Source of the DNA: Nitrosospira multiformis | GTDB taxonomy: Bacteria > Pseudomonadota > Gammaproteobacteria > Burkholderiales > Nitrosomonadaceae | Direction: 5' to 3' | Assembly (NCBI RefSeq): GCF_900103165.1 | Contig: NZ_FNKY01000001.1 | Coordinates: 2,604,001-2,668,000 of the forward strand | Length of the DNA stretch: 64,000 nt | Shown here: positions 20,397 through 51,030 of the stretch, piece after piece | Numbering within the stretch: position 1 is the stretch's first letter | How the letters are laid out: the number at the start of each line of letters is the position of its first letter | Translations under genes and position numbers: made by a program | Notes under the pieces: model-generated | Told to the model about the DNA's origin: nothing | What the model saw: only the letters and a program-made list of their open reading frames with translations | The model's database searches: none

Positions 20397-21362
20397 CTAG
20401 CGAATGTTTTCCCGGCTCAGTAAGTTTGTGTTGCCTAATTGCACAATATCGCTGACTCCCGTCCAGGCAGCGGCATAGGAATGATTCTTACCATAAGAGT
20501 TGTTCCAGACAATATTCGGAATCTCCATCAGACAGGCCAGGATATGCGCGTGCAATCTATCGGTCGTAATGACATCAAATCTGCCAAATAGATTGACAAC
20601 GTCATCAACGAGCTTCTCCGCGTACTCGACCCATAAATCCAGTTCATGGGTGAGCCGTTCAAGGTTAAAGTACATCAAGTGTAACGCGCGCAGTAAACGA
20701 CGTGCCTTTCGAATGCGGTGCTTGTTGTCACGTCCCACCAGCTCGCGCCAGTCAGTACACAGGTCAAAATCAGTCACCGTACCACCGGAGCGCTCGCTAT
20801 CGTCTCTCATCAAAGCGAGATGGCCCCTTTCCGAAGGAAAGGGGCGCTGTATTGGCCATAACTGATGCGCCATGTCGGGGAGAAGATAAACGTGCCGAGA
20901 CATCGGGAGTGCAAGTTCATACGAACGTTGATCTCTGACGCAAATATGGAGATCAGGGTGCTGCGAAAAGACCCTGCAACACTCATCATATGCATTCCTG
21001 GATAGAAAATGAATTGTCTGAGGGAGAATGACTATTCTGTTCTTTGGCAGTGCCCGGACTACCTGCTGGCGAGCCTGCTGCGGCCCCTCATAGAGATCAC
21101 CAAGATTTCCTCCACCTTGAAACACAATCACATCATTGGGAAGTGCCCACTTTGTGCGGAAGCTGAAATACGCTGCTTTGATATCAATTTTTATTTGATA
21201 GCGCTCAAAGAAGCGTAACGTGCCAAACATAATTAATAAGTCTCCTATGTTTCTGTGCATAGGAATATCAAGATAGTGAACTCGATCTGTTCCGATCAGG
21301 GTGACGAGGACCTCATGTTTATCCGCCAGTGAGCGCATTACTTCGGCATGATTGATTTTCAT
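20397..21362 (-). CDS. Polysaccharide pyruvyl transferase family protein
   Basis: A 321-aa enzyme of the polysaccharide pyruvyl transferase family (PF04230; ExoV/EpsO type). Such enzymes add pyruvate ketals to sugars of exopolysaccharides. Matching segments are HRNIGDLLIMFGTLRFFERY, VIVFQGGGNLGDLY, RIVILPQTIHF and, near the C-terminus, FDVITTDRLHAHILACLM and NSYGKNHSY. The length is normal. Probably cotranscribed with the PP-loop gene, and divergent from the glycosyltransferase at 21814 with a lux-type box between. No signal peptide, so cytoplasmic. Confidence 0.9.
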   Translation of the reverse strand: MKINHAEVMRSLADKHEVLVTLIGTDRVHYLDIPMHRNIGDLLIMFGTLRFFERYQIKIDIKAAYFSFRTKWALPNDVIVFQGGGNLGDLYEGPQQARQQVVRALPKNRIVILPQTIHFLSRNAYDECCRVFSQHPDLHICVRDQRSYELALPMSRHVYLLPDMAHQLWPIQRPFPSERGHLALMRDDSERSGGTVTDFDLCTDWRELVGRDNKHRIRKARRLLRALHLMYFNLERLTHELDLWVEYAEKLVDDVVNLFGRFDVITTDRLHAHILACLMEIPNIVWNNSYGKNHSYAAAWTGVSDIVQLGNTNLLSRENIR

Positions 21363-21813
21363 TGTGTATCTTTTCGCTTTTGGGTTTCGTGCCTCCGGCG
21401 CTGCGGATCATTGATGCTGGTTCACGATTTTCCGCTACCTTGTGCCCAAGTCAAACTGCAGCGAAACATTCGTTCCGCCAGCCTCCCCACAACACGTGCC
21501 CTACCTTATCAAGACACATTGAATTTTCCTTGAGAGGGAAAGCAATTGATACCTGTAAAATTTTACAGCTATTGGGCCACGTAGCCACATGATGTAATAG
21601 AGCAGCTGCTTCTAAAGCTTTGGAATGATAAAAGCGTAGTTCAAGATGCGGGCTCAGGACACCTGTCGCGATTATGTCGAAGATGTGAGCTGATGTGCAT
21701 ATAGCTTGTCACACCCACCGCTATCCGATCAGAGTGGAAGGATGCTCTCTTCCATTGTGGGGGCCTCAAGTTTTTCTTTTCAGACTTTTTCTCTCGGGCT
21801 CCGGTGAATTGGA
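21363..21813. other. Divergent intergenic region of the EPS genes
   Basis: A 451-base gap between the divergent pyruvyl transferase and glycosyltransferase genes. Apart from the lux-type promoter module at 21551-21600, I see no gene or repeat. Confidence 0.5.
21551..21600 (+). promoter_or_regulatory. Lux-box promoter module A
   Basis: ACCTGTAAAATTTTACAGCT (21551-21570) is a 16-bp perfect palindrome (CTGTAA-AATT-TTACAG). It matches the classic lux box shape ACCTGTA-N6-TACAGGT except at the penultimate position. A -10-like TGTAAT lies at 21593-21598, 32.5 bases from the box centre, so the box would overlap -35. Module B at 49981 has the same spacing and also ends AATAG. It faces the glycosyltransferase at 21814. 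Confidence 0.6.
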
Positions 21814-22935
21814 ATGCGGAATACAGACTTTTTCCTCGCACCCCTGAGAAAACTCGTAGGAAGGAAACTATTTTTCCGCTGGAAAACCTTATGGGCTCCC
21901 CATATATTCGCAAGGACAAATCAGACTGCGGGTCAGACAACGCTCATCTCAATGATCAGAAATGAGAAGGCCATCCTCGAGACCTTCTGCGCGCATGCCT
22001 CATCTCTATTTGATCGCGTTATTCTCATTGATCACCTCTCGTCCGATGGCACCAGGGAATATATAAAGCTTCTGTCAGAGAGATGCTCCAATATTGAGTA
22101 TTACTGCTTTGATGAGCCTGGCTATTATCAGTCTGAACTGATGACCTGGACCGCAAGTCATCTTGTGGATAAAAAAATGCCGGGGTGGGTATTCTTTCTC
22201 GATGCAGACGAGTTTATGCCATTTAGATCGAAGGAGGAGTTTAACCGCAAGCTTTCACAGTTTAGCCAATTTCCGGTAATCTCGATGCCGTGGCTCAATC
22301 TGGTGCCTTTGGACATGGAAAGTGGCAGGGTAATCGACGAGTTCTTTCTGAAACCTCCCAAACCTTCCCGTCATCACAAGATTGCGTACCAGCCCAGCCA
22401 CATTCCCTCGGGTGATTACTTTATTGCCCAAGGGAATCACGCTCTCTTCATGGGAAACAGGTCTTCGAAAGTAAAATTGCCAGCAAAAAACAGTTTTCCG
22501 CTTTATCACTTGCCAATACGGACAAAACACCAGCTTCTGGAAAAAATTTGCTATGGAATTGATTCCTACCGGCACATGGGTAGCGACCGGAAGAACAATA
22601 ACGGCATTCATTGGAATGAGATTCATCGCATTATCGAAAACAACAATCTTACGAATGAAATAATGGCGGGAATTGCGGCGCAATATGGCGACACTTTGTA
22701 CCCGCCTTATGAAAAAAGTTTTGAAGAGTTACTGAAAAATGGTTATAGCAAGATACGAATGGAGATATGTTGTTCAGAAGCCATGATTACTTTCGCTGAC
22801 GTTGCCAAAAACCGCCACGACGGAACCATTGTTAAGAATACCGGCCTATCTATAGATATACCCAACGATCCGTCAACAAATCACCGGAAAATAGACTTCG
22901 ATCGATCGATGGGTTCCATGCGAATGTCCGAGTAA
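21814..22935 (+). CDS. Glycosyltransferase, GT2-like fold
   Basis: A 373-aa cytoplasmic glycosyltransferase resembling the glyco_tranf_2_4 (GT2/GT92-like) group. The N-terminal nucleotide-sugar region is TTLISMIRNEKAILETFCAH and VILIDHLSSDGTREY (about 45-85). The metal-binding DADEF lies in GWVFFLDADEFMPF. NHALFMGNRSS and FPLYHLPIRTKHQLLEK are also family-like. Start ATG 21814 has only a weak ribosome-binding site (TTGGA). Its place beside the pyruvyl transferase indicates a role in exopolysaccharide chain assembly. The lux-type module upstream suggests density-dependent control. Confidence 0.85.
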   Translation: MRNTDFFLAPLRKLVGRKLFFRWKTLWAPHIFARTNQTAGQTTLISMIRNEKAILETFCAHASSLFDRVILIDHLSSDGTREYIKLLSERCSNIEYYCFDEPGYYQSELMTWTASHLVDKKMPGWVFFLDADEFMPFRSKEEFNRKLSQFSQFPVISMPWLNLVPLDMESGRVIDEFFLKPPKPSRHHKIAYQPSHIPSGDYFIAQGNHALFMGNRSSKVKLPAKNSFPLYHLPIRTKHQLLEKICYGIDSYRHMGSDRKNNNGIHWNEIHRIIENNNLTNEIMAGIAAQYGDTLYPPYEKSFEELLKNGYSKIRMEICCSEAMITFADVAKNRHDGTIVKNTGLSIDIPNDPSTNHRKIDFDRSMGSMRMSE

Positions 22936-48958: not shown

Positions 48959-49900
48959 CTAAGGGATCTCTGAATGAGTCTCCGGTTTTGGCAGCCGGTT
49001 TGCAGGTGCAACAGACTGACGCAGCCGGGCAGCAGCCACACCCGCCATCACAATCAGGCCCATGCCAAGCAGCGCCAGTCCGGTAACGGGATCGTCGAAC
49101 AGCAGCACGCCATACAACAGGGACCAGGCGATACCCAGGTACTGCAGGCTGGCAATGACAAGCGTGCCGCCGATCCTGTAGGCACGCGTCATCAACAGTT
49201 GTGCCAGCGTCGCCAATACACCCACCGCGAGCAGCATCCCGAGACCACGCAGGGTGTGGGCATGCCACCCGCTAATGAGCGATGTCTCCAGGGCGCCGGC
49301 GCAAATGCTGCCCACAGAGAAATAAAACACAATGCGCGCCTCCGACTCACCCGCCCTGCCAAGCGCGGTCACCTGCAAATAGGCCATGGCGGCAAGCAAA
49401 CCCGACAACAGCCCCATCAGCCCGCCCCATAGTTGATGGGGCTCCATAGTGGGTTGAAGGATACAGACCACACCCAAGAATCCAACAAGCACTGTGCAAA
49501 CCAGGCGCGCATCCACGCGGCCGCCGCCGATCAAAACCGAGCCCCCAATGAGCAACAGCGCCATCCAGATGGGAGACATATAATTCAGTGTCATCGCGGT
49601 GGCGAGCGGCAGTTCGCCTATCGCGTAAAACCAGAGGCCAAGCGCACTGACGCCGGTCAGGCTCCTCCAGGCGTGCATCGCCGGCAGACGGGTGCGAAGC
49701 GTTTCGCCTGATGCGCGCGTGATCAGCACAACCATCGCGGCGCCCACGATACCCCGGTAGAACACGATTTCACCCGTACCGTAGCTGGCCGACGCAAACT
49801 TGACACACATGCCCATGGTCGCGAAAAACAAAGTAGCGCCGATCATCAGCCCTGACGCCGATAGTTTTTCTTTTGCGTTTGAAATGATGTTAATCGGCAA
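48959..49900 (-). CDS. EamA/DMT superfamily permease
   Basis: A 313-aa inner-membrane protein with ten predicted helices in two EamA repeats (LFFATMGMCVKFASASYGTG; the second starts at about 165). It resembles RhaT/S-adenosylmethionine-type drug-metabolite transporters. It exports or imports a small metabolite that cannot be predicted. Convergent with the TPR/methyltransferase gene. Confidence 0.88.
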   Translation of the reverse strand: MPINIISNAKEKLSASGLMIGATLFFATMGMCVKFASASYGTGEIVFYRGIVGAAMVVLITRASGETLRTRLPAMHAWRSLTGVSALGLWFYAIGELPLATAMTLNYMSPIWMALLLIGGSVLIGGGRVDARLVCTVLVGFLGVVCILQPTMEPHQLWGGLMGLLSGLLAAMAYLQVTALGRAGESEARIVFYFSVGSICAGALETSLISGWHAHTLRGLGMLLAVGVLATLAQLLMTRAYRIGGTLVIASLQYLGIAWSLLYGVLLFDDPVTGLALLGMGLIVMAGVAAARLRQSVAPANRLPKPETHSEIP

Positions 49901-49980: not shown

Positions 49981-50030
49981 ACCTGTAAGATATTACAGCT
50001 ATCCATGCTTCCCGATCCCTAGTTAAATAG
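49981..50030 (+). promoter_or_regulatory. Lux-box promoter module B
   Basis: ACCTGTAAGATATTACAGCT (49981-50000) is a near-perfect palindrome (CTGTAA-GATA-TTACAG). A -10-like TTAAAT lies at 50023-50028, 32.5 bases from the box centre, the same distance as in module A (21551). Both 50-base modules share the whole box outline, CTAT after it and AATAG at the end. It lies ahead of the TPR gene (start 50044 or 50065). Confidence 0.6.
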
Positions 50031-50064
50031 CCTTCCAAGTAAAATGATTTGCGTGGGAGTTAGA

Positions 50065-51030
50065 GTGAAGCCTGATAAGCGGGAGGACCATGCACGCTCT
50101 ACTGTCGCGGCGAGAAAGGCGCTGCAGGCGGCGGAAGATGCATTTGGGCCGGATCATCCCAGAGTAGCCACCGGACAAAATAATCTGGCTGTACGATATT
50201 ATGCTGAAGGAAAATATGCTGAAGCCGAAACACTTCTCCAGGAAGCGTTGCGATTTTGGGAACGGACATATGGCGCGAATGATCTCGATATCGCCGCATG
50301 CCTGAATAATCTGGCGGAGGTACGTCACGCTCAGGGACACCTGAGGGTGGCGGCAGCGCTTCTGGAACGGGCGTTGGCGATTTGCGAAAAAACGCTGGGA
50401 CCGGCTCATCCCGATATTGCCATGAGCCTGCACAATCTGGCGTCACTTTACTCTGATCAAGCGCAGTATGTACAAGCCGAGCAGCTTCTCCAGCGTGCAC
50501 TGGAGATTTCGGAAAAAACATCCGGTCCGAATCACCCTGATGTGGCGACCTGTCTGAATAATTTGGCGGAGGTGTACCGCATTCAGGGGCAGCATGAGAC
50601 GGCGGCCGTGCTTCTCGCACGGGCATTGGCGATTGACGAGCAGAGCCTGGGGCCGGATCATCCCGATGTCGCCACGAATCTGAATAACCTGGCATTGCTG
50701 CATCTCGCCCAGAGACAGTATGCGGAGGCGGAGCCGCTCCTCCAGCGTGCGCTGGCCATTTCAAAAAAAACCCTGGGCGCAAGCCATCCCGACATGGCAA
50801 CCAGCCTGCACAACCTCGCGGCGCTCTATCGCGGTCAAGAACAGTATACTCAGGCCGAGCGGCTCTACAAACGCGCGCTGAAAATAAATGAAAAGAATTT
50901 TGGCCCGAATCACCCTGCTGTAGCCATAAGCCTGAAAAGCCTGGCGGCTCTATACCGTGACAACCATCAGCCAAATGCAGCAAAGCCGCTGGAAAAACGC
51001 GCATCGAAAATATGGGCGATACGCCGATAA
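50065..51030 (+). CDS. TPR protein, kinesin-light-chain type
   Basis: A 321-aa protein made of seven 42-residue TPR repeats (for example LGPAHPDIAMSLHNLASLYS and LGPDHPDVATNLNNLALLHL), the kinesin-light-chain/TPR_12 type. No enzyme or signal peptide is seen, so it is probably a cytoplasmic scaffold. GTG 50065 is chosen for GGGAG five bases upstream; ATG 50044 would leave almost no leader after the lux-type promoter. The lux-box module upstream suggests density-dependent expression. The repeat DNA is highly self-similar, so copy number could change by recombination. Confidence 0.8.
   Translation: MKPDKREDHARSTVAARKALQAAEDAFGPDHPRVATGQNNLAVRYYAEGKYAEAETLLQEALRFWERTYGANDLDIAACLNNLAEVRHAQGHLRVAAALLERALAICEKTLGPAHPDIAMSLHNLASLYSDQAQYVQAEQLLQRALEISEKTSGPNHPDVATCLNNLAEVYRIQGQHETAAVLLARALAIDEQSLGPDHPDVATNLNNLALLHLAQRQYAEAEPLLQRALAISKKTLGASHPDMATSLHNLAALYRGQEQYTQAERLYKRALKINEKNFGPNHPAVAISLKSLAALYRDNHQPNAAKPLEKRASKIWAIRR

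Follow-up and report, generated by a model that had tools for sequence, protein, structure and literature searches.

Lux-type boxes with a fixed promoter geometry point to a genus-wide quorum-sensing regulon in Nitrosospira

The window, i.e. the whole stretch of 64,000 nucleotides analyzed here, belongs to the 3.5-Mb genome of Nitrosospira multiformis (two contigs, C1 and C2) and carries two lux-type boxes, A and B, each in front of a protein-coding gene. Box A (ACCTGTAAAATTTTACAGCT; 21551..21570, forward strand) was located by pattern search, and its GCT end faces a -10-like element, TGTAAT (21593..21598, forward strand), 22 nt past the box. A poor -35-like hexamer, TATTGG (21570..21575, forward strand), lies 17 nt before this -10. 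The presumed target is a 373-aa glycosyltransferase of the GT2 type (Glyco_tranf_2_4; 21814..22935, forward strand). As context, a polysaccharide pyruvyl transferase gene adjoins it and diverges from A (20397..21362, reverse strand); no -10-like hexamer was found 22 nt from box A on that side. A putative role of the glycosyltransferase in exopolysaccharide (EPS) formation is suggested by its protein family and by this neighbor. Box B (ACCTGTAAGATATTACAGCT; 49981..50000, forward strand), which also precedes the TPR genes of nine relatives, is followed at 22 nt by TTAAAT (50023..50028, forward strand) and by the presumed target, an ORF for a TPR-repeat protein (50044..51030, forward strand) whose true start may be a GTG slightly further downstream. 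Here the divergent gene, again context only, encodes an EamA-family transporter (48959..49900, reverse strand).

A sequence-only reading of the window had described A and B as matching lux-box promoter modules upstream of these two genes, and the parts were found as named. The 16-base palindromic core of box A is exact and the first base of TGTAAT lies 32.5 bases from the box center; module B has the claimed outline with TTAAAT likewise at 32.5 bases, and one pair of its palindromic core is broken. With up to three mismatches, the pattern occurred in the window at A and B only (four strand matches), compared with a mean of 0.29 and a maximum of 3 matches in 100 shuffled windows. The same reading had taken the presence of two modules in one window as an argument against chance. 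Both modules are real, but two sites represent only mild clustering, as about 0.3 per 64 kb is expected at the density of this genome, and it is the genome-wide counts that carry the weight.

The whole-genome scan that had been proposed returned the exact box pattern nine times, and A and B thus belong to a larger set. Searching for the core CTGTA-N6-TACAG alone, with the outer letters unconstrained, yielded 16 cores, compared with one match for the reversed control pattern. Their outer letters were xCC...GCT in 12 cases, AGC...GCT in three, ACC...GTT in one, and ACC...GGT in none. A T..[AC][AC]T hexamer stood exactly 22 nt off one end in 11 of the 16 cores and was missing in the other five. 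Among the 13 asymmetric cores it was present in nine, each time on the side of the GCT end only, and two of the three cores with GCT at both ends also had it.

Individual sites merit separate mention. At C1:2522514 (L141), some 3.9 kb away from the 2518582 box, the core match AGCTGTATATTCCTACAGCT lacks a -10-like hexamer at 22 nt; it is probably due to chance. The boxes at C1:320638 (L001) and C1:2431183 (L005) are alike in sequence through the promoter and beyond, as if one promoter had been copied, and their downstream genes are unlike, encoding a polysaccharide lyase with a PEP-CTERM tail and a protein of the histidine kinase family, respectively. A one-mismatch box on the 41-kb second contig (L015, C2:20719-20738) lies about 130 nt ahead of a gene for a T2SSE-family ATPase, which we take to resemble the conjugation protein TrbB; quorum control of conjugative transfer through this box is a possibility. 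A comparison of the C2 box with a plasmid collection gave no match, and it was not counted as a likely promoter because the -10-like hexamer is missing at 22 nt on both sides.

The anatomy of the promoters was derived from a non-redundant collection. From 93 exact sites listed in other genomes, the 13 at luxI were left out, and the remaining 80 were combined with 10 sites of the window's own genome; after dropping every site with at least 60% flank identity to one already kept, 48 of these 90 sites remained. Conservation of the box itself in this collection is by construction, since the search pattern fixed its letters, but the -10 region and the flanks were not part of the selection. The T..[AC][AC]T hexamer was found exactly 22 nt past the box in 37 of the 48 sites (it is missing in 11), compared with at most seven at any other offset from 5 to 49 and at most five on the upstream side, and the module is thus linked to promoters. 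The looser T....T gave a smaller contrast (37 sites at offset 22, 25 at offset 19). Further preferences emerged at positions that had been left unselected: A (44 of 48) and T (38 of 48) directly after the box, A (35 of 48) and T (46 of 48) in the middle of the dyad, and the consensus TCTAAT for the hexamer at +23 to +28.

Two features of these promoters stand out. The box abuts the place of the -35, overlapping it by one base, at a fixed distance from the -10, and the commonest hexamers at this place among the 48 sites were TATTCA and TATCCA; no more than three of six bases matched TTGACA in 34 of the 37 sites with a hexamer at 22 nt. The second feature concerns position 2 of the -10, where ordinary -10 elements have A, their most strongly conserved base. 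Here, A was second in only 2 of these 37 hexamers, and in 6 of all 48 sites, which suggests a strict dependence on an activator. The contrast with ordinary promoters is suggestive only, the control tests being weak: over 464 kb of the genome, hexamers anchored on TTGACA gave no clear sigma-70 signal, and not only TATAAT (2.45 per 10 kb in intergenic vs. 0.77 in coding DNA) but also TCTAAT (1.63 vs. 0.42) and TTTAAT (4.54 vs. 1.27) were enriched between genes. In five tRNA upstream regions judged by eye, a -10-like hexamer with A second was clear in four and ambiguous in one, and the scripted search paired a -35 for some of the five only.

A LuxR of the AHL type and a luxI, both of which the sequence-only reading had suggested looking for, are present in the genome. 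Neither a module unlinked to promoters nor a genome lacking an AHL-type LuxR, outcomes that this reading had named as refuting it, was thus observed. A single protein matched Autoind_bind (PF03472) at E ≤ 0.01, with an E-value of 2.9e-40. It aligned with LasR over 213 residues, covering the autoinducer-binding and HTH domains (E = 1.5e-42), and by sequence its closest solved full-length relatives are LasR, RhlR, and QscR of Pseudomonas aeruginosa, the LasR entries scoring best. In the las-rhl boxes the inner bases differ. The one strong AHL synthase (PF00765, E = 1.8e-37) is encoded at C1:57601-58098, and a second, weak match lies at C1:883977 (24 bits with its neighbors). The distance between luxI and luxR is about 36 kb, a departure from their usual, if not obligatory, adjacency; in the four genomes of genus g12, the two genes start about 1 kb apart. 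A box in front of luxR was also sought at 27 loci, over roughly 600 nt ahead of the domain match, and was rejected, as the best match had 6 of 20 letters wrong.

At luxI, the box was present throughout. Each of the 27 loci detected in the family, 23 of them in the genus and four in g12, carries it with one or two mismatches to the 20-base pattern, the form in the window's own genome being TCCTGTAAGATTCTACAGCT, and a -10-like hexamer follows at 22 nt in 25 loci and at 23 nt in the other two. We further analyzed the co-occurrence of box and signaling genes in 120 family genomes, an even sample of a larger group. The exact 19-base motif was present in 22 of the 23 genus genomes and in 1 of the 97 others (two matches in total for the reversed control across the 120 genomes), luxI (E ≤ 1e-10) in 23 of 23 and 4 of 97, and luxR (E ≤ 1e-5) in 22 of 23 and 5 of 97, counts that are confounded by phylogeny, as they represent one genus and four neighbors. 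The genus genome without the exact motif, G002, shows matches with one mismatch; its completeness is 80%. Outside the genus, one of the four luxI-bearing genomes (G042, with both luxI and luxR) has the exact motif, and the other three, also of g12, show a two-mismatch form at their luxI loci. None of the 93 family genomes without luxI contained the exact 19-base motif. One of the genomes with neither a luxI match nor an exact box, G098, encodes a more distant LuxR-type protein (L112, G098:C44:84798; E = 5.8e-19), a possible LuxR solo.

A search of named genomes for one form of the box turned up five stretches in Nitrosospira or Nitrosovibrio records and one in Aliivibrio fischeri. In A. fischeri, luxI is likewise preceded by a 20-bp inverted repeat, and the -10 lies roughly two turns beyond it. 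The identity of this box is 17 of 20 to the own box at C1:2440216, 16 of 20 to B, and 15 of 20 to A, and its -10 (TATAGT) follows at 21 nt instead of the 22 nt to the TCTAAT-like hexamer of Nitrosospira. Two further differences are evident: the Nitrosospira box is asymmetric, unlike the A. fischeri lux box (none of the 16 own cores is of the form ACC...GGT), and in Nitrosospira luxR does not lie beside luxI.

Gao et al. 2014 and Mellbye et al. 2017 reportedly described the LuxI/LuxR system of N. multiformis. That such systems are known in Nitrosospira, as the sequence-only reading had stated, agrees with a passage stating that N. multiformis possesses a LuxI/R-type synthase and regulator (PMC9902454), and a passage of another article cites Gao et al. 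2014 (PMC4786786). For a different nitrifier genus, Nitrospira, the accessible parts of one study describe a lux box before a luxI, tested by reporter and EMSA for NspR1/NspI; its sequence, ACCTGGCGGTTCCGCCAGGT, differs from the Nitrosospira box (PMC8553950). According to the same parts, 61 predicted boxes were tested and three were named as responding, a result that calls for caution with regulons based on prediction. Among the open-licence papers searched, none was seen to describe a lux box or regulon in Nitrosospira or to show what its AHL synthases and receptors control.

The two sites of the window differ in how widely they are kept. Box B and its TTAAAT are retained in ten genomes, namely that of the window and nine relatives. 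The glycosyltransferase downstream of A was found in 6 of 23 genomes (E ≤ 1e-20), and when 700 nt upstream were searched in the other five, a box was detected in one, G014, with one mismatch and the same TGTAAT 22 nt on. Site A by itself is thus weakly conserved and, taken singly, could be inactive.

To obtain candidate targets, we surveyed 17 own loci and 100 stretches from relatives, comprising 80 exact sites and 20 one-mismatch sites; the latter were taken from among the matches listed, and later genomes are therefore under-represented. An exact core was required, and 7 of the 117 loci were dropped (own L011 and L019, as well as L232, L233, L242, L244, and L246). A presumed first downstream ORF was assigned for 109 of 112 oriented sites, mechanically, so that some assignments may be wrong, and the ORFs formed 39 clusters, one member of each being used for the family search. 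The genome counts that follow are lower bounds, since weaker boxes were not sought. Most widespread were sites before genes encoding a PAS histidine kinase (at least 14 genomes), a tyrosinase (at least 11), the TPR protein of site B (at least 10), a second histidine kinase (at least 8; nine sites, one without a -10), and a sigma-54 activator domain (at least 7). An exosortase-associated acyltransferase and an ATP-grasp-like protein below the Pfam cut-off followed with at least five genomes each (G042 among those of the acyltransferase), a GT4 glycosyltransferase and CheR with at least four, CheW and a FadL-like porin with at least three, and an ABC-2 permease and GGDEF/EAL proteins with at least two. 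The single sites of the window's own genome include the one before the polysaccharide lyase with a PEP-CTERM tail.

Judged by their families, many of the box-bearing genes appear to be matrix or signaling genes. Counter to a tidy matrix regulon, several of the proteins encoded downstream matched no family, and the set also includes an acyl-CoA dehydrogenase and a tetrapyrrole-methylase-like protein. The box before the gene for an exosortase-associated acyltransferase or its relative was seen in two genera of the family (L013, C1:2927026, TIGR03694; L226, G042:C50:1068), which would tie quorum sensing to the PEP-CTERM/exosortase system. A gene for a LodA-like lysine oxidase also carries the box (L206, G004:C12:17115), and the searched member of the tyrosinase cluster (L157) has a Tat signal.

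Taken together, A and B are very probably operators of the single AHL-responsive LuxR, which would activate luxI, the glycosyltransferase gene, the TPR gene, and a wider regulon in the class II manner. The LuxR/AHL reading of the boxes is well supported by comparative genomics. From the boxes, their fixed spacing and conservation, their presence at every luxI locus found, and their co-occurrence with luxI, we infer the identity of the binding protein, its dependence on AHL, its action as an activator and not a repressor, and what the targets do. As the cell's own acyl-homoserine lactone accumulates, a LuxR dimer would occupy the 20-bp box and, abutting a weak -35 region, would recruit RNA polymerase to the -10 located 22 nt downstream. 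This would turn on the glycosyltransferase gene downstream of A, the TPR gene downstream of B, and luxI itself, the last giving positive feedback, along with a broader group of genes for matrix and signaling functions.

Three other explanations were considered. The same LuxR might occupy the box as an EsaR-like repressor, i.e. a LuxR that represses without AHL, with AHL releasing the blocked promoter. A protein bound where the box abuts and by one base overlaps the -35 place could indeed block the polymerase, and one of the closest solved relatives, 3szt, was deposited as a quorum-sensing control repressor. However, the poor -35 matches (at most three of six bases in 34 of 37) and the scarcity of A at the second -10 base (2 of 37) make the promoters look unable to fire unaided, and the best-scoring relatives are entries of LasR, an activator; we therefore consider repression improbable. 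Still less probable is an unrelated regulator that has the palindrome as its operator and controls luxI as well. The link between LuxR and the box is indirect, with some 36 kb between luxR and luxI and no box seen ahead of luxR, but sequence and geometry fit the A. fischeri lux box, and the exact motif is absent from all 93 luxI-less family genomes, including G098 with its distant LuxR. That the two modules of the window arose as palindromes by chance or as copies of a mobile repeat, as the similar flanks at C1:320638 and C1:2431183 might hint, can practically be dismissed, because the controls contradict it when all sites are taken as one set: 16 cores vs. one reversed, one preferred -10 position in 48 sites with dissimilar flanks, and site B kept in ten genomes.

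Activation by an AHL-bound LuxR thus remains the preferred reading, and class II lux-box promoters in a genus-wide quorum regulon are ordinary in kind, real on the comparative sequence evidence, and more extensive than the two modules had revealed. The regulon would be new, its kind familiar; AHL synthases and receptors have already been reported in Nitrosospira. A more tentative proposal, which we consider possible but rather less than probable, is that these quorum promoters are built to be silent without LuxR, having no real -35 and a TCTAAT -10 that avoids A at its second position, and that they control the matrix, exosortase-linked functions, and sensory kinases. If true, such silent promoters would either tie these genes strictly to cell density or reflect the use of a sigma factor whose -10 preference is different. 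The promoter rule (box, 22 nt, TCTAAT) offers a simple means of finding further members, and the conserved operator provides a list of candidate quorum targets for ammonia oxidizers, comprising matrix, export, chemosensory, and sensor-kinase genes.
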